A DNA stretch of 46,295 nucleotides from Lachnospiraceae bacterium (GTDB lineage Bacteria > Bacillota > Clostridia > Lachnospirales > Lachnospiraceae). This document shows positions 22,141 to 41,576 of the stretch, piece after piece. The notes under the pieces are model-generated. The model saw only the letters and a list, made by a program, of their open reading frames with translations, was not told the origin of the DNA and did no database searches. Location of the stretch: NCBI GenBank assembly GCA_024698555.1, contig JAILRI010000235.1, forward strand, positions 1 to 46,295. The letters run 5' to 3'. The first letter of the stretch is position 1. Every line of letters starts with the position of its first letter. Made by a program: the position numbers and the translations under genes.

Positions 22141-24900
22141 TTAATCGATCTGCTTGAACTTTACACTCTTGTCAACGCCGGAAGCCTTGATCAGATTGAC
22201 GATCCGTTCAAATTCTTCCTTAGTGGCGGCGTTGATCTTGAACTGTGCGTTCTTGGCTATTCCTGCGAAAGCCTTGGGTGATATCTGTGTGATACCCGAA
22301 CTGAGCACGATGGTCTTCAGATCCTTGGCGTTCTGGAATGCGCCCTTGCCGATGGTGGTAATGGTATCGGGAAGGGTGATCTTCTTGATCGAGCTGTTCT
22401 TGAGCGCGCCCTTGCCGATGGTGGTAACCGCGAAACCCTTGACGAATGCAGGGATAACAGCGGTCTTACCCTTTGTGTCATAATCGGTAAGCTTGATACC
22501 GTCGTCCTTTGCGGAGGTAAATTCCTTTACGACCTCATCGCCGTTGGGTTTGTCGGTCTCAAGGGTGATGGAGAGCTTGCCGTTTGAGGCGATCTCAACT
22601 ACCTCGGCAACAACCTTTCCCGCCGTGCTGGTAGTAACGGTACTGGCGAGAGATGAGCCGTCGGCGTTCTCAACCTTGGTCTCAACGGTTTCGGTTCCCT
22701 TGTAATCCTTGGAAACAGTCTCTTCAGTCTTGCTTACGACCTTGCCGCTTGCGTCGAGCTGCTGAGTCTCGGTCTTTGAGTTGCCGTTCTTATCCTCGGT
22801 CTTTGTTTCAACTTCCTTGGTACCGTTCTTGCCGGTCTTCTCAGTCTTTGTTTCGGTGGTACCGTCCTTTTTCTCCGTCTTGGTGGTGGCAGTCACGGTG
22901 CCGTCCGCCTTCTTGTCTTCGGTCTGGGTGGTCTTGGTGCCGTCGCTGTTTTCCTTAACAGTAGTAGAGTTACTCGAACCGTCCTTATTCTCAGTCTTGG
23001 TGGTGGTCGAACCATCCTTATTCTCGGTCAGAGTGGTTTTCGTGCCGTCTGTAGTTTCAGTGGTGGTAGACTTGGTACCGTCAGCGCTTTCTGTGGTAGT
23101 AACCTTGGAACCGTCCTTGTTCTCGGTCGTAGTGGACTTGGAACCATCCTTGCTCTCAGTAGTGGTGGTCTTGGTTCCGTCAGTACTTTCAGTCGTGGTG
23201 GTCTTGGTTCCGTCAGTGCCCTCAGTGGTAGTGGTCTTGGTTCCGTCAGTACCCTCTGTAGTGGAGGTCTTGGAACCGTCAGCGTTTTCGGTTGTGGTAG
23301 TCTTGGTGCCGTCAGCGTTTTCAGTAGTGGTGGTTCCCGCAGTGGTGCTTCCCGTACCGTCCGTAGTGGTGGTTGTGGTATCGGCAGGAGCGGTATATGA
23401 GTAATCGCTGTAGGAAGGAACCGAGGTGGAGGCAGGCTGTTTCTTCTCTACCTTCATCCACATAAAGAAGAACTCATTGTCATTGATAGGGTCTTTCAGG
23501 GTTACAGGATAGGTTCCATTGGCGCTGTATTCGGCAACATTGGGCTTGTCGGAGTAGTCATTGTCAACGATATACCTGTAGCCGGATTCAAACGTATACC
23601 CCGCGGCACACTCAAATGTAAGGGTGAAATTACGTCCGTTGAACCAGATATCGATGTAATACTGCTTTTCATTATTGCCATCTACCCAGTAATCGTAAGT
23701 ATAGGCAGAAATCTTTGTATTGTCAGTGGCAGTTACGGTGATCTTCATCGCCTTATCTTTATCATTGTAGAAGGATATGGAAGAACCGTCCTTCGCGACA
23801 ACGGGAGGGATCTCCGAGCAGCCGAAATTGACCATAGTACGGCTCCATGACTGGCAGAGAATCTCAGGAGTGGTAAGGTCGGTCTCAACCTCTTCGGGCC
23901 AGGTTTCAATAGGCTCCCAGATTTTAACTTTACCGTTTTCGTGGAAGAGAGCCACATCATGGCGCTCCATGATCTCATGCCCCCATTCGTCATTCTCTCC
24001 GGTAGGAACGTCATAGAAGAGGACAAAGGTATTATAATCATTATTCTCAAATCCGGGTCCCAGCTTAAACGCATTCTTTATCGCGTCTTCGTTTCTTTCT
24101 ACTTCTACATTGAAGCCGTCGTTATCCCAGTAATTCTTTTTGAGCGAGGGATCGGGAACAACATACAGACTATCCCTGATGGAGCCATCGATGATGACGA
24201 AACCCATTGCTTCGTTATAGAAGTACAGCTTACCGTCGCTTTCGCTCCACGGACCTTTTATCGAAGCAAAAGGAAAGTTCACATAGAGCTTTTGCTTAAA
24301 GAAGGCTACGGAGCAATCGGCATGATCGCCTTTAGTGCCATCGGAATTTATAAAAGGTGCGTAATCAAAGGTATAATCACCCTGAGATCCACTATAATGG
24401 ATCCAGTCCTTCCCGTTAACATTGATTTCGGGAGAGCATATTCCGGCGTCATAACCCTCGTCAGGAAAATAATAAACTTTAACGGAGCTTTTTTTCGTGG
24501 TTACGGCTATGGCATATTCTTTATATTCATTTCCGTAGATACTGTGAATGGTCTCACCGATATTGTAGACGATCGCGCCGGGTGAAACCACGTAATTCGA
24601 CGGCGTGCCGTGTCCGTTTTCACCGCCGGTATTCGCATGGATCGCAATTTCTGTGATCGTATCGTCGTAGATCCTGAAACAACCGTTTGAGCACATTACC
24701 TGAACAAAACCATGATCCTGAGTATGATCACTTACATTCAGTAATTCGGTATACGTTTCAGGGTTATGGTCTCCCCAGAAGTAATAGGTATACTCCTCGG
24801 CTGCCTGCGCCTGTACGGTTCCGCCGCTTACCGGTACGCAGGAGAGTACCAGGCAGAATACGGCAAACAGTGCGATCAGTTTCTTAAAACTGCTGTTCAT
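22141..24900 (-). CDS. Secreted BspA-like LRR protein with Thr-rich repeat stalk
   Basis: A 919-residue surface or secreted protein. The signal peptide (KKLIALFAVFCLVLSCVPVSG) likely ends near AQAAEE at about residue 35. An uncharacterised beta-rich N-terminal region reaches about 480. A PSYSDYSYTAP linker and a Thr/Glu/Lys stalk of about twelve 11-residue units (consensus DGTKTTTTExx) span roughly 500-665. After further Thr/Lys-rich sequence, a BspA-type leucine-rich repeat domain (IGKGALKNSSIKKITLP, then IGKGAFQNAKDLKTIVL) closes the protein at about 800-919. No sortase motif or SLH domain was seen. The ATG at 24900 has GGAAGG eight bases upstream. A paralogue lies 4 kb away in the same orientation. 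Confidence 0.85.
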   Translation of the reverse strand: MNSSFKKLIALFAVFCLVLSCVPVSGGTVQAQAAEEYTYYFWGDHNPETYTELLNVSDHTQDHGFVQVMCSNGCFRIYDDTITEIAIHANTGGENGHGTPSNYVVSPGAIVYNIGETIHSIYGNEYKEYAIAVTTKKSSVKVYYFPDEGYDAGICSPEINVNGKDWIHYSGSQGDYTFDYAPFINSDGTKGDHADCSVAFFKQKLYVNFPFASIKGPWSESDGKLYFYNEAMGFVIIDGSIRDSLYVVPDPSLKKNYWDNDGFNVEVERNEDAIKNAFKLGPGFENNDYNTFVLFYDVPTGENDEWGHEIMERHDVALFHENGKVKIWEPIETWPEEVETDLTTPEILCQSWSRTMVNFGCSEIPPVVAKDGSSISFYNDKDKAMKITVTATDNTKISAYTYDYWVDGNNEKQYYIDIWFNGRNFTLTFECAAGYTFESGYRYIVDNDYSDKPNVAEYSANGTYPVTLKDPINDNEFFFMWMKVEKKQPASTSVPSYSDYSYTAPADTTTTTTDGTGSTTAGTTTTENADGTKTTTTENADGSKTSTTEGTDGTKTTTTEGTDGTKTTTTESTDGTKTTTTESKDGSKSTTTENKDGSKVTTTESADGTKSTTTETTDGTKTTLTENKDGSTTTKTENKDGSSNSTTVKENSDGTKTTQTEDKKADGTVTATTKTEKKDGTTETKTEKTGKNGTKEVETKTEDKNGNSKTETQQLDASGKVVSKTEETVSKDYKGTETVETKVENADGSSLASTVTTSTAGKVVAEVVEIASNGKLSITLETDKPNGDEVVKEFTSAKDDGIKLTDYDTKGKTAVIPAFVKGFAVTTIGKGALKNSSIKKITLPDTITTIGKGAFQNAKDLKTIVLSSGITQISPKAFAGIAKNAQFKINAATKEEFERIVNLIKASGVDKSVKFKQID
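22914..23335 (-). repeat. About twelve 33-bp tandem units coding the Thr-rich stalk
   Basis: The stretch is built of 33-bp units, each coding 11 residues of the pattern [ATKS]-DG-[TS]-K-TTTTE-x. Middle units are nearly identical and outer ones more diverged. The repeats are in frame and have no spacers, which separates them from a CRISPR array. Unit number is likely to vary between strains. Confidence 0.85.
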
Positions 24901-25068
24901 AAAGTCCACCTTCCTTTTGCTGAATTTTTGAATAAGCTTCATTATCACATCAAAACAGATGGTAATAAAAGTATGAATATGATATCACAATTTTATAAAA
25001 AATGGAACACTTTTAGTTGACTTTTTATTTTTTCTCTTCTTCTGGAGGGCGGCAGTTTCAGTAATTTT

Positions 25069-26394: not shown

Positions 26395-26718
26395 GTGGGA
26401 GACAGACTGACTGCAAAGGAATTGGAACGCTTGAACAATTCGGATCCGGAATGGTTTAAGAAGCTTATCGTTGAAAATGACCCGGTATTTTTACAGGAGA
26501 CCGTGGGTGAAAGGTTTTCAGGGCTGATGGAGAAATACGGGATGGCGCCTGCGGAGGTGATACGCAGGTCATTGCTCAGCAAGAGTTATGTTTACCAGGT
26601 GCTTAAAGGGGAAAGACAGGCATCAAGAGAAGTACTGATCAAGCTGTGCATTGCCATCGGATGCCCTTTACTTCAGAAGGAATCAGAGCGGTCTTACCCT
26701 TTGTATCATAGTCGGTAA
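26395..26718 (+). pseudogene. Truncated helix-turn-helix protein
   Basis: The N-terminal 90 or so residues look like a small XRE-like regulator. A helix-turn-helix is visible in PAEVIRRSLLSKSYVYQVLK, followed by GERQASREVLIKLCIAIGC. Homologues of this type continue with further helices, but near 26661-26669 the frame enters the reverse strand of the convergent secreted-protein gene and ends at 26718. The GTG at 26395 has GGGGGA four bases upstream; an in-frame TTG at 26383 is the alternative. Truncated proteins of this kind may still bind DNA, so inactivity is not certain. Confidence 0.6.
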
Positions 26719-28378
26719 GCTTGATACCGTTGCCCTTTGCGGAGGCAAATGCCTTTACGACCTCGTCGCCGTTGGGCTTGTCGGTCTCAAGGGTGATGGA
26801 AAGCTTTCCGTTTGCCCCGATCGTTACAACCTCTGCGACAACCTTGCCTGCCGCGGTGGTAGTTACGGTACTCTCGAACGATGAACCGTCAGCGTTTTCG
26901 GTAGTGGTGGTTTTGGTGCCGTCGGCGTTCTCCGTAACAGTGGTTCCTGCGGTGGAGGTGTCTGACGTACTTCCTGTGCCGTCTGTAGTGGTAGTAGTTT
27001 CGGCAGGAGCGGTGTAGGAGTAATCGCTGTAGGAAGGAACGGAGGTCGAGATCGCACTAAATGCTGCTTCTATCGATACGATATGCAGACCGTCAGGACG
27101 AACCTTATCGCGTGTAGCCTTTATCTTCTTATCGTTTTCGGTAACAACAGGCTCCATGTCATACTTAGTAGTAGTATTCTTCGGTAATTCCCTGATCTCG
27201 TATATATAGCCTGTATCACTCTTTTTGAGACTGTCAAGCGCTACGGCCGTACCGTCTATCTTGACAGAAGAGAGCTGATAACCGCTGGCGGGAGTAAAGG
27301 TGACATTTACGCCGTCTTTTAATTCCGCGCCCTGATATAACTGCTTAACAGTATTACCGACACGGTAGTAATCCATGCCCGCGGTCAGAGCTATACTGCC
27401 GGAACCGGTAGAAGAAGCCTCCACTACAAACTCGCTTCCGGGATCGGTCCAGCCGTTAGGTCTCCAGTCCTCACCCCATGAGGTGATCCAGGTACCGCCG
27501 TTCTCGTACCATCTCCAACTGGTCTGTCCGTCGATCTCAAACAGCGCGTACGTGATCAGATCATCGGGATTCCAGTAAACGAATATGAACAGGGGATCGT
27601 CTGTTGAGGGGGTATAGGTTACGGTATTGTTGGTCAGCTCTAAAACACCTTTTCCTTCGATGTTAAGAGTTGCGCCGGGATTCTCGGCCTCATAATTACC
27701 CATCATCAGTCTGCCGTTGCCGATCACCTGCACCTTGCCGGTGTTTGTGATGGTTAAGGTGGATCCGGGTCTGAAATAGAAGTAGTTGGGCTCTCCGCTG
27801 CCGTCATCTTCGCGTTCCTGATGTTCATCGATAAACGGGCAGTCATCAATGATCATGGTTCCTTTGATGATGGCTTCGCCGCCATCCTGGATGCTGATGC
27901 CGCTGGGGTCATAACGGTCAATGTATTCTATAGCACCGGGGGTAACGGGTTCCTGCCAGTGATTTTCAACACAATGGAATGTTACGCCGGACTCAACGAC
28001 CAGTCTCTGGGTACGGGGCCAGGCTTCAAACTTGGTATCGCCGCTTACGGTGATGGTGCCGAATACATAAGTCCACAGATCATGATCATCGGTTTCCTTA
28101 TTCAGCAGATAGTACGAGTCTTCGATCACGCGCATCCTGTGTCCATCGCCCGGAAGGGTTATGTTCTCATAATCACCATAATGTTTTCCGTAGACATAGT
28201 TACGAACTTCGTTATAATACTCATCGGACCAGTGATATTCACGTCCGTCACCGTGATATTCGGTGTTTTCGGGTTCGTCAGCCAGTGCCTTAACGGTTTC
28301 GCTGTTTGCCGGAACGCAGGTCAGCATCAGGCAGAATACCGCAAATAAAGCAATTAATTTTCTAAGTTTCACACTCAT
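26639..28378 (-). CDS. Secreted paralogue of the Thr-stalk protein, LRR domain lost
   Basis: A 579-residue secreted protein with a signal peptide closely like that of its paralogue (LRKLIALFAVFCLMLTCVP). The N-terminal 440 residues differ and look beta-rich. The PSYSDYSYTAP linker, a stalk cut down to two units, and the segment LSITLETDKPNGDEVVK through KGKTALIPSEVKG are shared. There the paralogue continues into BspA-type leucine-rich repeats, while this one ends seven codons later (IRWQCTA) in sequence antisense to the HTH gene. The LRR domain is therefore missing. The ATG at 28378 has GGAAGG upstream. It may be secreted but without its terminal binding domain. Confidence 0.8.
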   Translation of the reverse strand: MSVKLRKLIALFAVFCLMLTCVPANSETVKALADEPENTEYHGDGREYHWSDEYYNEVRNYVYGKHYGDYENITLPGDGHRMRVIEDSYYLLNKETDDHDLWTYVFGTITVSGDTKFEAWPRTQRLVVESGVTFHCVENHWQEPVTPGAIEYIDRYDPSGISIQDGGEAIIKGTMIIDDCPFIDEHQEREDDGSGEPNYFYFRPGSTLTITNTGKVQVIGNGRLMMGNYEAENPGATLNIEGKGVLELTNNTVTYTPSTDDPLFIFVYWNPDDLITYALFEIDGQTSWRWYENGGTWITSWGEDWRPNGWTDPGSEFVVEASSTGSGSIALTAGMDYYRVGNTVKQLYQGAELKDGVNVTFTPASGYQLSSVKIDGTAVALDSLKKSDTGYIYEIRELPKNTTTKYDMEPVVTENDKKIKATRDKVRPDGLHIVSIEAAFSAISTSVPSYSDYSYTAPAETTTTTDGTGSTSDTSTAGTTVTENADGTKTTTTENADGSSFESTVTTTAAGKVVAEVVTIGANGKLSITLETDKPNGDEVVKAFASAKGNGIKLTDYDTKGKTALIPSEVKGIRWQCTA

Positions 28379-28534
28379 GCTTTCACCTTCCTTTGTCTGT
28401 AATTTTGATCTTATACCGCTGTCCAAAACCGACCGGAACAACGATATATAATAAATTATATTGTAACATGTTTTTAATTACATTTGGTACGCTGCGAGCG
28501 GACTGAAAAAATCCAGCGGGCCTGGTATAAATCA

Positions 28535-33922: not shown

Positions 33923-34399
33923 ATGAAAAACAACGATAAAACAAATGTCATGCGTGTATTGGACGCAAAAAAGACATTGTATGAGAGTCATACTTATGAA
34001 GCCGATCCGACTTTTACAGGAGAGCAGATCGCGGGGATACTCGGCGAGGATCCGGATAAAGTCTTTAAAACGCTTGTAACACAGGGCAAGTCCGGTCAGT
34101 TCTACGTGTTTGTGGTGCCGGTTGGGGAGGAGCTGGATCTGAAAAAGGCGGCAAAGGCAGCAGGAGAGAAGTCTGTAGCCATGATCAAACAGAAGGAGCT
34201 GCTGCCGCTTACCGGATATGTCCACGGCGGGTGTTCGCCGATAGGGATGAAAAAGCAGTTCAGGACATTTATTCATGAAACGGCCACGCAATATGAGAGG
34301 ATATTTGTGAGTGCCGGCAGGGTCGGATGCCAGATAGGGCTTGCTCCCGGCGACCTGATAAGCGTTGCGGGATGCGAGCCGGCAGATATAACAGTTTAG
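33923..34399 (+). CDS. ybaK: YbaK/EbsC-type Cys-tRNA(Pro) deacylase
   Basis: A 158-residue trans-editing protein that hydrolyses mischarged Cys-tRNA(Pro). The YbaK motifs are present: KTLVTQGKSGQFYVFVVPV with the conserved lysine, GYVHGGCSPIGMKK, and the C-terminal SAGRVGCQIGLAPGDL. The length is normal. It follows GH43 by 25 bases and precedes the fusion gene by 75 bases in the same direction, so it may be cotranscribed, although no functional link is evident. Confidence 0.93.
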   Translation: MKNNDKTNVMRVLDAKKTLYESHTYEADPTFTGEQIAGILGEDPDKVFKTLVTQGKSGQFYVFVVPVGEELDLKKAAKAAGEKSVAMIKQKELLPLTGYVHGGCSPIGMKKQFRTFIHETATQYERIFVSAGRVGCQIGLAPGDLISVAGCEPADITV

Positions 34400-34474
34400 C
34401 GGAGTGGAATAGAGCAGAAACAGTGAAAAGTTTTTACGCGGAATCATATACAGATCATGAGGGATAAGCAAGAT

Positions 34475-36775
34475 ATGTTCAATGCACACGATATTTCAAG
34501 AAATGCATGTCAGCTGTTCGGAGAACAGGCAAAGTGCGGTTACGACTGGTGGTGGCATTCGTTTACCGCCCGGCATGAGAAAACAGGTGTAGAAAAGGCT
34601 TTTTTCATAGAATTCTTTTTGTGCAACCCTGAGTATGGAGAGGAAAAGCCTGTATTCGGACAGCTTCCTGAGAACAGAGAGAAAGGGATCAAGCCTTCTT
34701 ACCTGATGGTAAAAGCCGGCTCATGGGGAAAGGACGCGGCTCAGCTGCATCGCTTTTTCGGCTGGAAGGAGATAAAGGTGGATTATGGCGTGCCGTTCCG
34801 CGTCAAGGCGGACGACTGCTTTCTCAGCGAGGATAAGACCAAAGGGTCGGTTTCGGTATCGGCAGAGGACGCAGCAGCGCACCCTGAATGGATGTGTCAG
34901 AGCGGGAGCATGGCATGGAAGCTCCATATAGACAAACAGGTTGCGTTTAACGTAGGTTATGGGGCTTCTGAACCGATGAGGGATCTGCAGGCGTTTGAGA
35001 TGTTCTGGCATGCGGAGGGCATGAAAACGGCATATGAGGGTGAAGTGGTCTGGAACGGGGAGCGGTACACAGTCGATCCTGAGACCTCCTTCGGATATGC
35101 CGATAAAAACTGGGGTAAGGATTTTACCTCTCCCTGGGTGTGGATCAGCTCCTGCAATCTTACAAGTGAGCTCACTGGCAGAAAACTGGAAAACAGCGTA
35201 TTTGACATAGGAGGAGGCCGGCCGAAGGTGGGTCATGTCGCCCTTGACAGGAAGCTTCTTTCAGCATTCTGGTATGAGGGAACACCTTATGAATTCAACT
35301 TTTCCAAGGTGTGGACGCACACGCAGACCGTATTTGACTGCCATGAGACCGATACGCAGATCATATGGCATGTGGAGCAGGCAAACCGTCAGGATCGCAT
35401 GGTGACAGATCTGACCTGTGAAAAGGAGGATATGCTGCTCGTCAACTATGAATCCCCAAATGGCGAAAAACGGCATAACAGGCTTTGGAACGGCGGGAAT
35501 GGACAGGGAACGGTCGAACTGTATCATGAAGGTGTACTAGTTGACAGGATCCGTGTTGAAAATGCCGGCTGCGAGTACGGAGAGTACGATGAAGAGGAAG
35601 AAAACGGGGAAGAGCGGGATGATGGCGAAAACTTCTTTAACCGTGTGAAGTCCGCAAACAGTGAAATGCTTGAAAATATCGGGATGGCTATAGAAGAAGC
35701 AAGAAAAGGCGTCAGGGACAGGATCGGTCAGCTTCATGACAGGCTGGCGGATAAAGATACAAAACAAGTGACGGATCGCGACGGAACAGCAGATGCGTGT
35801 AGAATGACTGATTCGGGGGAACCGGAATATACAGCAAATTTGCAGGAAGCTGCGAAGAAAATAAGATTTTTAGATTTACGGCATGTCACCTCAGCAGTAC
35901 GGGAAATGTGTATCGAGGCGAATCTGCGTCTGGCGCCTGATATGAAGGCAGCGCTGGAGAAAGCCTCACGGACGGAAACCGGTGAGCTGGGCCTGAAGAT
36001 CCTCGGACAGCTGGAGGAAAACCTGAAAATAGCCGATACCGATGAGATACCGATCTGTCAGGATACGGGTATGGCTGTTGTATTCCTGAAGGTCGGGCAG
36101 GATGTACATTTTACCGGCGGATCATTAAAAGATGCTGTCAATGATGGCGTAAGGCAGGGCTATACTGACGGATATCTCAGAAAGTCCGTGGTTTCGGATC
36201 CGCTTCTGAGAGAGAATACGGATGACAATACGCCCGCGATCATTCATACTGAAATCGTTGAAGGCGATGAGATCGAGATAACCATAGCGCCTAAGGGATT
36301 CGGCAGCGAGAATATGAGCAGGGTATTTATGCTCAAGCCGGCAGACGGTATCGAAGGAGTGAAAAATGCCGTGATCACCGCTGTTAAGGAAGCCGGTGCC
36401 AATGCCTGCCCGCCTATGGTGGTGGGAGTCGGGATCGGGGCGGATTTTGAAAAATGCGCGGTTTTGGCGAAAAAAGCGCTGACTGATGAACTAAATTCCG
36501 TTCACTCATACTACAATAGTAGTAAGAGCTGTGAGTTTGCTGCTACGACCGGGGCGAAGAATGGCAGAAAACAGCCGGATACCTCTTATCTTGAAGAACT
36601 TCAGAAGGATCTTTTCGATTCGCTTAACAAGCTCGATATAGGTCCGGGCGGAATGGGAGGCAAAAACACGGTTCTGGGCGTGAATATCGAGACATATCCT
36701 ACCCATATCGCGGGAATGCCGGTGGCTGTAAATATATGCTGCCATGTGAACCGGCATGTGACAAGGGTGCTGTGA
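34475..36775 (+). CDS. Tocopherol cyclase-like domain fused to fumarate hydratase alpha subunit
   Basis: A 766-residue two-part protein in one uninterrupted frame. Residues 1 to about 370 match the tocopherol cyclase-like (lipocalin-type) family: YDWWWHSFTA, YLMVKAGSWGKDAAQLHRFF, MFWHAEGMKTAYEGEVVW and FGYADKNWGKDFTSPWVW. About 90 acidic, helical residues link it to a class I fumarase/tartrate dehydratase alpha subunit from about 463 (FLDLRHVTSAVREMCIEAN). Possible Fe-S cysteines lie in PICQDTGMAV, GANACPPMVVGVG and DFEKC, and NIETYPTHIAGMPVAVN near the end is typical. A polar insert of about 20 residues sits after AKKALTDEL. The ATG at 34475 has GAGGGA ten bases upstream; 34457 is an alternative. 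The beta subunit follows at 36946. Confidence 0.88.
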   Translation: MFNAHDISRNACQLFGEQAKCGYDWWWHSFTARHEKTGVEKAFFIEFFLCNPEYGEEKPVFGQLPENREKGIKPSYLMVKAGSWGKDAAQLHRFFGWKEIKVDYGVPFRVKADDCFLSEDKTKGSVSVSAEDAAAHPEWMCQSGSMAWKLHIDKQVAFNVGYGASEPMRDLQAFEMFWHAEGMKTAYEGEVVWNGERYTVDPETSFGYADKNWGKDFTSPWVWISSCNLTSELTGRKLENSVFDIGGGRPKVGHVALDRKLLSAFWYEGTPYEFNFSKVWTHTQTVFDCHETDTQIIWHVEQANRQDRMVTDLTCEKEDMLLVNYESPNGEKRHNRLWNGGNGQGTVELYHEGVLVDRIRVENAGCEYGEYDEEEENGEERDDGENFFNRVKSANSEMLENIGMAIEEARKGVRDRIGQLHDRLADKDTKQVTDRDGTADACRMTDSGEPEYTANLQEAAKKIRFLDLRHVTSAVREMCIEANLRLAPDMKAALEKASRTETGELGLKILGQLEENLKIADTDEIPICQDTGMAVVFLKVGQDVHFTGGSLKDAVNDGVRQGYTDGYLRKSVVSDPLLRENTDDNTPAIIHTEIVEGDEIEITIAPKGFGSENMSRVFMLKPADGIEGVKNAVITAVKEAGANACPPMVVGVGIGADFEKCAVLAKKALTDELNSVHSYYNSSKSCEFAATTGAKNGRKQPDTSYLEELQKDLFDSLNKLDIGPGGMGGKNTVLGVNIETYPTHIAGMPVAVNICCHVNRHVTRVL

Positions 36776-36945: not shown

Positions 36946-37563
36946 ATGGATCATCATATAAATCTGCCATTTACGGAAGAGGATCTTGAAAAGATCCGGC
37001 CTATGGACGTGCTGTATCTGACCGGAACCGTATATACCGCAAGAGACGCGGCTCATAAGCGGATGTTTGAGACTGTGATGAAGGAACTGGAGACCTTGGA
37101 CGGATCGGGGCCGGATACCGATTCGACATCTGCCGGTATGACTGTTGGGGATACGGGGGTGGACGGAACTATCATCACTGACGAGATCAGGGAGCGTATT
37201 GTCAAAGCCCTTCCGTTTGATTTAAGGGGCGCGGTGATATACTACTTAGGACCTACCCCCGCGAAGCCCGGTCAGGTTATCGGATCGGCAGGTCCTACTA
37301 CCTCCGGAAGGATGGACAGGTATACGCCGATATTGCTTGATCTGGGACTAAAGGGCATGATCGGCAAAGGAAGGCGTTCAGATGAAGTGACCGATGCTAT
37401 CCGTCGAAACGGAGCAGTCTATATGAGCGCAACAGGCGGAGCCGGAGCTCTTCTTTCAAAATGCATAAAAAGTTCCGAGATCATCGCGTATGAAGACCTC
37501 GGAACCGAAGCGGTCAGAAAACTGTATGTTGAAGATTTTCCCGTAACCGTGCTGATCAGGTAA
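36946..37563 (+). CDS. Fumarate hydratase (class I) beta subunit
   Basis: A 205-residue beta subunit of an Fe-S fumarase/L(+)-tartrate dehydratase, which interconverts fumarate and malate with the alpha subunit. Family motifs are clear: LYLTGTVYTARDAAHKRM, VIYYLGPTPAKPGQVIGSAG, PTTSGRMDRYTP, GMIGKGRRSDEV and MSATGGAGALLSKCI. A Gly/Asp/Thr-rich insert of about 25 residues (near 53-77) lies where family members have a short loop. The C-terminus, FPVTVLIR, stops slightly earlier than usual. GGAGG stands six bases before the ATG. The partner is the fused alpha subunit upstream. Confidence 0.93.
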   Translation: MDHHINLPFTEEDLEKIRPMDVLYLTGTVYTARDAAHKRMFETVMKELETLDGSGPDTDSTSAGMTVGDTGVDGTIITDEIRERIVKALPFDLRGAVIYYLGPTPAKPGQVIGSAGPTTSGRMDRYTPILLDLGLKGMIGKGRRSDEVTDAIRRNGAVYMSATGGAGALLSKCIKSSEIIAYEDLGTEAVRKLYVEDFPVTVLIR

Positions 37564-40502: not shown

Positions 40503-41576
40503 TCACCAGCGGTTCTCAACATACTCGCAGAAAGCGTACATGTCCCGAATCTCGAGTTTTGTGCCGTCGTCTAAGATCACGGAACCGCTCCAGAGCCCGT
40601 GAACCTGGTGGGAATGCATACGCATGACCAAAATGTTCAGATCTGAATGGTGGTCAGTAAACGGTTTCATCACCATATCAAACCGCCCGTCCTGGGAAAT
40701 GAAATGCCAGGGCTTCATATACCCGTCCGGCTTCGGAAATGTCTCCACGTCCACGGGTCCTATCTTATGCAGCTTCCCGTCATAGAACACGGCGGTTTCG
40801 GTAGCATTGCTCTCATCCCCGATGCCCCATGTTATCTCGAAGCCGAATATATGCCTGATCCCGGCAGCATCATCGATATATGTCGAGCCGTTGCCCCAAT
40901 ACCAGACAAGCGAGTAAGGCGTACACACCCTGCCCCAATCCATTACACAGAAAGCACGATCCTTCTTAAATTCAACAGTCTTGCCGGATGCGGCAAAATA
41001 CCCCTCCACCGGCATCGAGTTCTGTTTCGTGGTACAAAAATACCTGTCAGCTTTATTTTCAAACGGAAGTACGGTGGTGATATTTTCAAGTCCCGGCATG
41101 ATATCCATGGTAAAATGACACTTAACCTCTCCCATCTCGAACCGGATATCCCGCCTGTCAAAAAATGTTTCGGTCTCAAACAGGGCTTTCCCCACGCGCA
41201 GGCTCAAAGCACACTCCTCATCCCCCTTCGGCGGAAGCACGTACTTATCTTTCCCGCCGAGAAACGGACTCATCACGCTCGCTTCCACCACTCCGGTCTT
41301 TAGATTCACCAGTACGGCCGATGCATATCCTCCCAGTGATATATTTGCAAAGCTGATCTGCGCCATATACTCGCCATTCGCAATCTGGTAGAAATCCCAT
41401 TCCTTGCGCCTCATCTGGTGTTTTACAAGCCTGCGGTCATAGTCAAACACATTGTGTCTCGCCCATCCGGCGGCGAGCAGCGTCCCATCATCTTTAAGAA
41501 GAGGCGTAGGATCCGTGTATTCCTTCTGGATGCTTGTGAAATCCCCTTCCAGCCAGCTTTTATATGTTCTCTTCAT
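40503..41576 (-). CDS. DUF2804 family protein
   Basis: A 357-residue protein of the DUF2804 family, recognised from ARHNVFDYDRRLVKHQMRRKE near residue 40, EWDFYQIANGEY, and DWGRVCTPYSLVWYWGNGS in the middle. It is rich in Trp and beta-strand-like sequence, has no signal peptide, and no catalytic motif was recognised. The function of the family is not established. GGAGG lies six bases before the ATG at 41576. Its 3' end is seven bases from the PIN gene, and its 5' side borders a GC-rich palindromic repeat region. Confidence 0.82.
   Translation of the reverse strand: MKRTYKSWLEGDFTSIQKEYTDPTPLLKDDGTLLAAGWARHNVFDYDRRLVKHQMRRKEWDFYQIANGEYMAQISFANISLGGYASAVLVNLKTGVVEASVMSPFLGGKDKYVLPPKGDEECALSLRVGKALFETETFFDRRDIRFEMGEVKCHFTMDIMPGLENITTVLPFENKADRYFCTTKQNSMPVEGYFAASGKTVEFKKDRAFCVMDWGRVCTPYSLVWYWGNGSTYIDDAAGIRHIFGFEITWGIGDESNATETAVFYDGKLHKIGPVDVETFPKPDGYMKPWHFISQDGRFDMVMKPFTDHHSDLNILVMRMHSHQVHGLWSGSVILDDGTKLEIRDMYAFCEYVENRW

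Follow-up and report, generated by a model that had tools for sequence, protein, structure and literature searches.

A predicted CrtC/AttH-type barrel domain fused in frame to an Fe-S fumarase alpha subunit in two species of a Lachnospiraceae-type gut genus

Does an open frame that encodes two proteins of unrelated families represent a genuine fusion, and if so, how old is it and what holds the two halves together? The question is raised by a 46,295 nt stretch of DNA from a Lachnospiraceae bacterium (contig JAILRI010000235.1, referred to here as the window). The initial annotation of this DNA proposed that a tocopherol cyclase-like domain is joined to the alpha subunit of a fumarase, either as a functional tether or as the record of a deletion between neighboring genes. 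The genome of the window (G000) is a 3.15 Mb draft in 275 contigs, 94.18% complete with 7.85% contamination, and presumably metagenome-assembled.

The fusion gene and its parts

The frame is open from 34457 to 36775 on the forward strand and, counted from the ATG at 34475, runs for 766 codons to the stop at 36775. This ATG is preceded by a ribosome-binding site and corresponds in alignment to the position at which free-standing homologs of the N-terminal domain (the N-domain) begin (MFN..). The features of the locus are as follows.

33923..34399, forward strand: upstream neighbor, a Cys-tRNA(Pro) deacylase of the YbaK/EbsC type (TIGR00011), also found upstream of the fusion in a second species (G016)
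34459..34464, forward strand: ribosome-binding site GAGGGA, 10 bases 5' of the ATG at 34475; the upstream stretch forms a duplex of -7.7 kcal/mol with the 16S tail
34475..35587, forward strand: N-terminal domain, residues 1-371, a predicted CrtC/AttH/tocopherol-cyclase-like double barrel (PF14249, AlphaFold2, Foldseek, conserved columns)
35588..35860, forward strand: acidic linker, residues 372-462, with a predicted helix at 385-426 and a low-confidence stretch after it; 14 residues in G016
35861..35863, forward strand: site of the former fumA start codon, now ATA (Ile 463); the aligned site is a start codon in 12 of 12 unfused congeners examined
35861..36775, forward strand: alpha subunit of an Fe-S (class I) fumarase, residues 463-766, stop included (PF05681, PRK06246, conserved columns, PDB 7xky)
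36946..37563, forward strand: separate gene for the fumarase beta subunit, fumB (PF05683, 172.7 bits), with its own ribosome site (-9.3 kcal/mol)

The initial description of the locus holds in its main lines: the frame is open and matches both Pfam families, the beta subunit has its own gene, which begins 170 bases after the fusion gene, and the linker is acidic and partly helical. The helix comes from a model of the full-length protein that is weak (pLDDT 69.8, pTM 0.45, from 33 rows), in which the N-domain itself is poorly predicted and residues 426-460 have very low confidence. The term "tocopherol cyclase-like" can be kept for membership in a fold and for nothing beyond that, since the Pfam match is low-scoring and covers part of the model only, and the matching solved structures are of other proteins.

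The Pfam match, to Tocopherol_cycl (PF14249), covers residues 171-276 only, about 100 residues of a model of 335 positions, at 4.1e-7 and 29.9 bits against a cut-off of 26.6; it recurs, at E<=0.01, in 70 of 70 aligned members of the N-domain family. No NCBIfam model matched the N-domain at E<=0.01. The AlphaFold2 model built from the 70 family members is confident (pLDDT 92.7, pTM 0.91) and has a two-barrel fold. Foldseek found 14 chains of the PDB with E<=0.001 (from 1.6e-9 to 2.3e-6): AttH NE1406 (2ich), kievitone hydratase (7a0q), pericyclases including Fsa2 (7dmn, 7e5t) and a 25-phosphosteroid lyase (9fzn). I take these proteins to form one superfamily, to which CrtC would also belong. Since the matches are hydratases, cyclases and lyases of this kind, the N-domain family is, by its predicted structure, a distant relative of cofactor-independent enzymes that act on hydrophobic compounds. 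The N-domain shares with them the predicted fold and differs in sequence (7-13% identity, query TM-scores of 0.35-0.49) and in being fused to a fumarase. A profile search of PDB sequences gave nothing significant; its weak matches (E 0.3 to 2.5) include the phosphosteroid lyase and the kievitone hydratase chain 7a0q, along with unrelated enzymes.

PMC12402844 describes CrtC as a protein of two beta-barrels and postulates D268 as its catalytic aspartate. In the N-domain, D210, within a stretch (ADKNWG) that is invariant in the aligned homologs, is by inference a candidate catalytic acid. Kievitone hydratase adds water to a prenyl double bond, according to PMC5805349. A literature search of titles and the starts of abstracts turned up no paper on the N-domain family or on a barrel-fumarase fusion, and an idea concerning tocopherolquinol in Butyrivibrio found no support among the papers listed. 

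The remainder of the window contributes two observations of its own. About 3 kb downstream of fumB lies a gene for a DUF2804 protein (40503-41576, reverse strand; PF10974, 307.8 bits), for which no kinship with the N-domain was detected. On the reverse strand at 22141-24948 and 26639-28441 are genes for two large proteins, which by eye have related starts and threonine-rich, repeat-like stretches and are apparently secreted.

The C-terminal half is, as judged from conserved sequence, a complete alpha subunit of a class I (Fe-S) fumarase. Residues 473-763 match PF05681 (Fumerase; 1.5e-108, 362.6 bits against a cut-off of 25), the NCBIfam model for fumarate hydratase, PRK06246, is matched at 362.4 bits (cut-off 276), and PDB 7xky is matched at 1.2e-49. 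Each of the two fusions retains 76 of the 77 fumA columns that do not vary in a set of 22 free-standing homologs, taken from the 29 such rows listed. All four cysteines invariant in those homologs are kept (residues 479, 528, 645 and 756) and are candidates for the three ligands of a [4Fe-4S] cluster. The protein thus resembles a two-subunit class I fumarase (for example, chain A of 7xky) in its complete alpha subunit, its conserved cysteines and the separate beta gene downstream, but it differs in carrying a 462-residue N-terminal extension, consisting of another protein and a linker, and in having no start codon of its own for the fumarase part. Heterodimeric class I fumarases are described in PMC10602362. 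A search of G000 with the whole protein (E<=10) found no further fumA, and a search for class II fumarase (fumC) gave two weak matches, at 38.5 and 26.9 bits where the cut-off is 664.75, so the fusion is the only fumarase found in that genome. It is, in sum, a new combination of known folds.

Two length differences were noted in passing. Near 36490-36610 (about residues 672-705 of the fusion), fumA has an insertion of some 14-45 residues in 9 of 11 aligned rows from the genus, which is absent from rows of other genera and also from G018 and G014. In fumB, near 37080-37180, there is an extra stretch (about GSGPDTDSTSAGMTVGDTGVDG), giving a protein of 205 residues as compared to match spans of about 184-193 codons in congeners with full matches.

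A second species and the age of the fusion

Among 24 genomes of the genus, fumA matches are present in 20, some of them partial, and the N-domain in three: fused in G000 and G016 and free-standing in G021. The fusion therefore occurs in two of the 24. In G016, a single 356-codon frame on contig C90 comprises the N-domain from residue 334 onward, a linker of 14 residues (DETEEEKKASYFNL) and fumA. The first 141 bases of C90 are identical to the last 141 of another contig, C44, on which the remainder of the N-domain is found (89% identity). An exact overlap of this sort is typical of a k-mer assembler at a branch of its graph, so some alternative path exists in that sample. The fusion junction is shown by C90 alone, where the end of the N-domain and the linker together take up only 52 codons ahead of fumA. 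Upstream, the two genomes share a YbaK-type gene (85%; in C44 it precedes the N-domain by about 3.8 kb) and an ABC transporter (91%).

These results bear on two ways in which the fusion might have dissolved. A frameshift or hidden stop in the linker is not borne out, because a second, separately assembled species is in frame with a linker of different length. Nor do close strains turn out to have two separate genes: the closest genome found to have the N-domain, G016, is itself fused, and the fumA genes of the other congeners are unfused among the matches listed. The match in the unfused G021 that extended to query residue 414 is not linker homology; it is a read-through alignment past two TGA codons.

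The linkers (91 residues in G000, 14 in G016) were read, like the insertion in fumA, from an alignment with one misaligned row (L113). By eye they start alike (DEEEEN..FFNRV and DETEEE..YFNLV), which suggests that they derive from one linker that later gained or lost a large piece in frame. No convincing homolog of the G000 linker was found among the N-domain loci searched (best other E 0.28), and across the 24 genomes of the genus nothing but the linker itself scored better than E 0.18. The idea that the linker is a captured gene was dropped, since it has no homolog in the genus but itself. The single fumA column lost, G656A, is identical in the two fusions and is consistent with a common origin.

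Beyond the genus, I examined samples of the genomes of the family and the order, larger groups in which rare fusions may exist elsewhere. The N-domain is present in 56 of 397 family genomes, in which two other frames are long enough to hold both halves (G253, 701 codons; G397, 837 codons); both are ordinary genes that end at the C-terminus of the N-domain itself. A fumA gene is present in 310 of the 397, and among the matches listed no frame besides that of the window exceeds 364 codons. At the level of the order, 286 of 392 genomes have either half, and among the matches listed none besides the window's spans both. Two long fumA frames there are not fusions: in G721 (481 codons) fumA is an ordinary gene of 283 codons, and in G707 (434 codons) the frame belongs to the upstream gene, which stops 6 codons into the match. 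As a test of function, recurrence thus comes out in between, with two species of the same genus and no other genus among the matches listed.

The two species have diverged considerably. Identical residues number 331 of 371 in the N-domain, 257 of 304 in fumA and 146 of 193 in fumB. Codon differences within the N-domain are mostly silent (172, as against 40 that change the amino acid); random change would give about 164 changing codons (148 at the minimum in 500 runs) and 9.5 stops. The corresponding counts in fumA, made without simulation, are 136 silent and 47 changing. For ybaK, dS is 1.3 (YN00) to 2.0 (NG86). No finite rates were obtained for the N-domain, fumA and fumB, which I read as saturation, and silent sites appear to be near it. 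Both fusions keep all 75 of the N-domain columns that do not vary in 69 free-standing homologs, hand-chosen for spread from the 105 rows listed. By these comparisons both domains are under purifying selection, and the conservation of the barrel half implies that it still does something. With silent sites near saturation and a second species at hand, a recent deletion in a single strain, one of the readings first entertained, is ruled out. On the evidence of the sequences, the fusion is genuine and it is old.

The lost fumA start and the origin of the barrel

If the frame is fused, is the protein? The start of fumA was examined in 12 of the 18 genomes of the genus with unfused fumA (G011, G012, G013, G014, G019 and G023 being left out), and in all 12 the aligned codon is ATG, GTG or TTG, as compared to ATA in G000 and GTC in G016. 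Duplex energies at this site, calculated with the 16S rRNA tail, range from -6.8 to -10.4 kcal/mol for the 12 unfused genes and come to -4.3 in G000 and +0.8 in G016. Internal in-frame candidate starts give -1.1 to -3.5 kcal/mol, where the background has its median at -3.1 and its best 5% at -8.6, while the start of the N-domain gives -7.7 in G000 and -8.2 in G016. Since the fumA start codon is lost and neither fusion has a good ribosome site there, fumarase alpha is most probably translated only from the start of the N-domain, as part of the fusion. A weak in-frame GTG five codons into the fumA of G016 (C90:174; -2.9 kcal/mol) and the signal of -4.3 near the lost start in G000 leave some room for internal initiation.

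Before the unfused fumA start in G005, G009, G020 and G021 (L116, L115, L117 and L114), a G+C-rich, hairpin-like repeat can be seen by eye, perhaps a terminator or leader. It was not seen directly before fumA in the fusions.

The N-domain ends in the natural C-terminal motif of its family, GCEYGEY. A scan of genomes found 159 stretches that encode relatives of the N-domain; the best 80 served as loci, and one of these (L031) is G016, where the contig ends before the gene does. In each of the other 79, a stop follows no more than 14 residues after a C-terminus of the GCEYGEY type. In a search of the family that kept 30 loci, one of them the window, the other 29 are all free-standing, with tails of up to 25 residues. 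Because the free-standing homologs stop at this end, the N-domain is a complete copy of a free-standing protein, and fumA resumes where its normal start aligns. The free-standing gut homologs resemble it in sequence (55-83% identity) and in their conserved columns, and they differ in stopping 0-25 residues past the C-terminal motif and in having no fumarase gene in the available flanks: no match to fumA or fumB with E<=0.001 was found around the 80 loci, 40 of which have both full 6-kb flanks. A conserved neighborhood was sought and not found, the most frequent recurring neighbor, an ABC-type ATPase (named by eye), being present at only 8 of the 80 loci.

In a tree of the family, the fused pair (support 100/97) lies inside a group of 10 rows (99/91), the other eight of which are labelled Oscillospiraceae (five), Lachnospiraceae (two) and Erysipelotrichaceae (one). 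The pair adjoins the Oscillospiraceae rows with weak support (86/75), and the free-standing copy of the congener G021 belongs to another, distant group. The N-domain of the window is 67-74% identical to copies labelled Bacteroidales or Paludibacteraceae, though labels of metagenome bins can be wrong. The simplest reading of these relationships would be horizontal spread of the barrel gene. None of 72,556 plasmid records has a match to the N-domain. Two unannotated human-faecal records of "Bacteriophage sp." (MT837528.1 and MT838316.1) encode nearly full-length homologs, 37-38% identical, and may represent mobile carriers or bacterial DNA in virome assemblies.

How the fusion may have arisen and what it may do

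The explanation that as a whole I consider probable is an ancestral read-through fusion. A free-standing, horizontally spread gene of the lipocalin type (CrtC/AttH fold) would have arrived before fumA in an ancestor shared by the two species, which belong to one Lachnospiraceae-type gut genus. Read-through past the natural end of the barrel gene into fumA would have given one polypeptide, an arrangement that would have become fixed once the start codon and ribosome site of fumA had decayed. Fumarase alpha would since have been the C-terminal part of a two-domain protein, pairing as usual with the separate beta subunit. Both domains would be intact, side by side on a tether of nearly indifferent length, the fumarase half hydrating fumarate to malate and the barrel half binding or converting a hydrophobic compound. 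No examined genome has the intermediate, a barrel gene and fumA adjacent but unfused. In this explanation I infer that alpha is not synthesized separately, that it pairs with beta, that each half is active and works independently of the other, and that the steps took this order.

The halves may instead be coupled, the barrel binding a hydrophobic ligand or a membrane surface and thereby regulating, localizing or feeding the fumarase, in a protein that might hydrate two substrates. The fusion has been retained through near-saturating silent divergence with the invariant columns of the N-domain intact in both species, and the fold relatives of the barrel include a hydratase (kievitone hydratase) and a lyase, points that speak for such coupling; CrtC, of the same superfamily, is a hydratase too, hence the idea of two hydrated substrates. 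However, a linker that differs more than six-fold in length argues against tight or precise geometry, so that the side-by-side arrangement is preferred, and free-standing versions of each half are common, with no fusion seen in another genus and no fumarase match in the available flanks of the 79 other N-domain loci. Coupling seems to me unlikely on balance, and slightly less likely still is its more particular form, in which the barrel senses or converts a membrane- or plant-derived isoprenoid-like compound and so positions or tunes the fumarase, perhaps as a double hydratase. It is quite improbable that the DNA is fused and the proteins are made separately, by internal initiation or by cleavage of the linker. 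There are in-frame candidate starts in the linker and early fumA, and the long, low-confidence linker of G000 could be sensitive to proteases; but the energies of those starts are near or weaker than the background median and far from those of unfused fumA, no candidate in the linker or the first fumA codons is common to the two species (the only shared ones are two ATGs within the fumA core, at fumA residues 15 and 27), and the linker of G016 has merely 14 residues. An artefact of assembly or sequencing is hardly credible, even with both genomes being metagenome assemblies and that of the window so fragmented and contaminated: the frame is kept in two assemblies despite the different linkers, and the start codon is lost at the same aligned site, to different codons, which excludes a sequencing error, a lost stop or a chimera.

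The locus amounts to a natural experiment: proteins of no shared ancestry were merged into a single chain, fumA was left with no start of its own, and the fusion has persisted through an almost complete replacement of silent sites and a change in linker length. It points as well to an uncharacterised and apparently horizontally spread family of double-barrel proteins, widespread in gut bacteria, with ruminants the source of many of the records. And it offers a cheap test case for whether such fusions persist because of what they do or because of the difficulty of undoing them.
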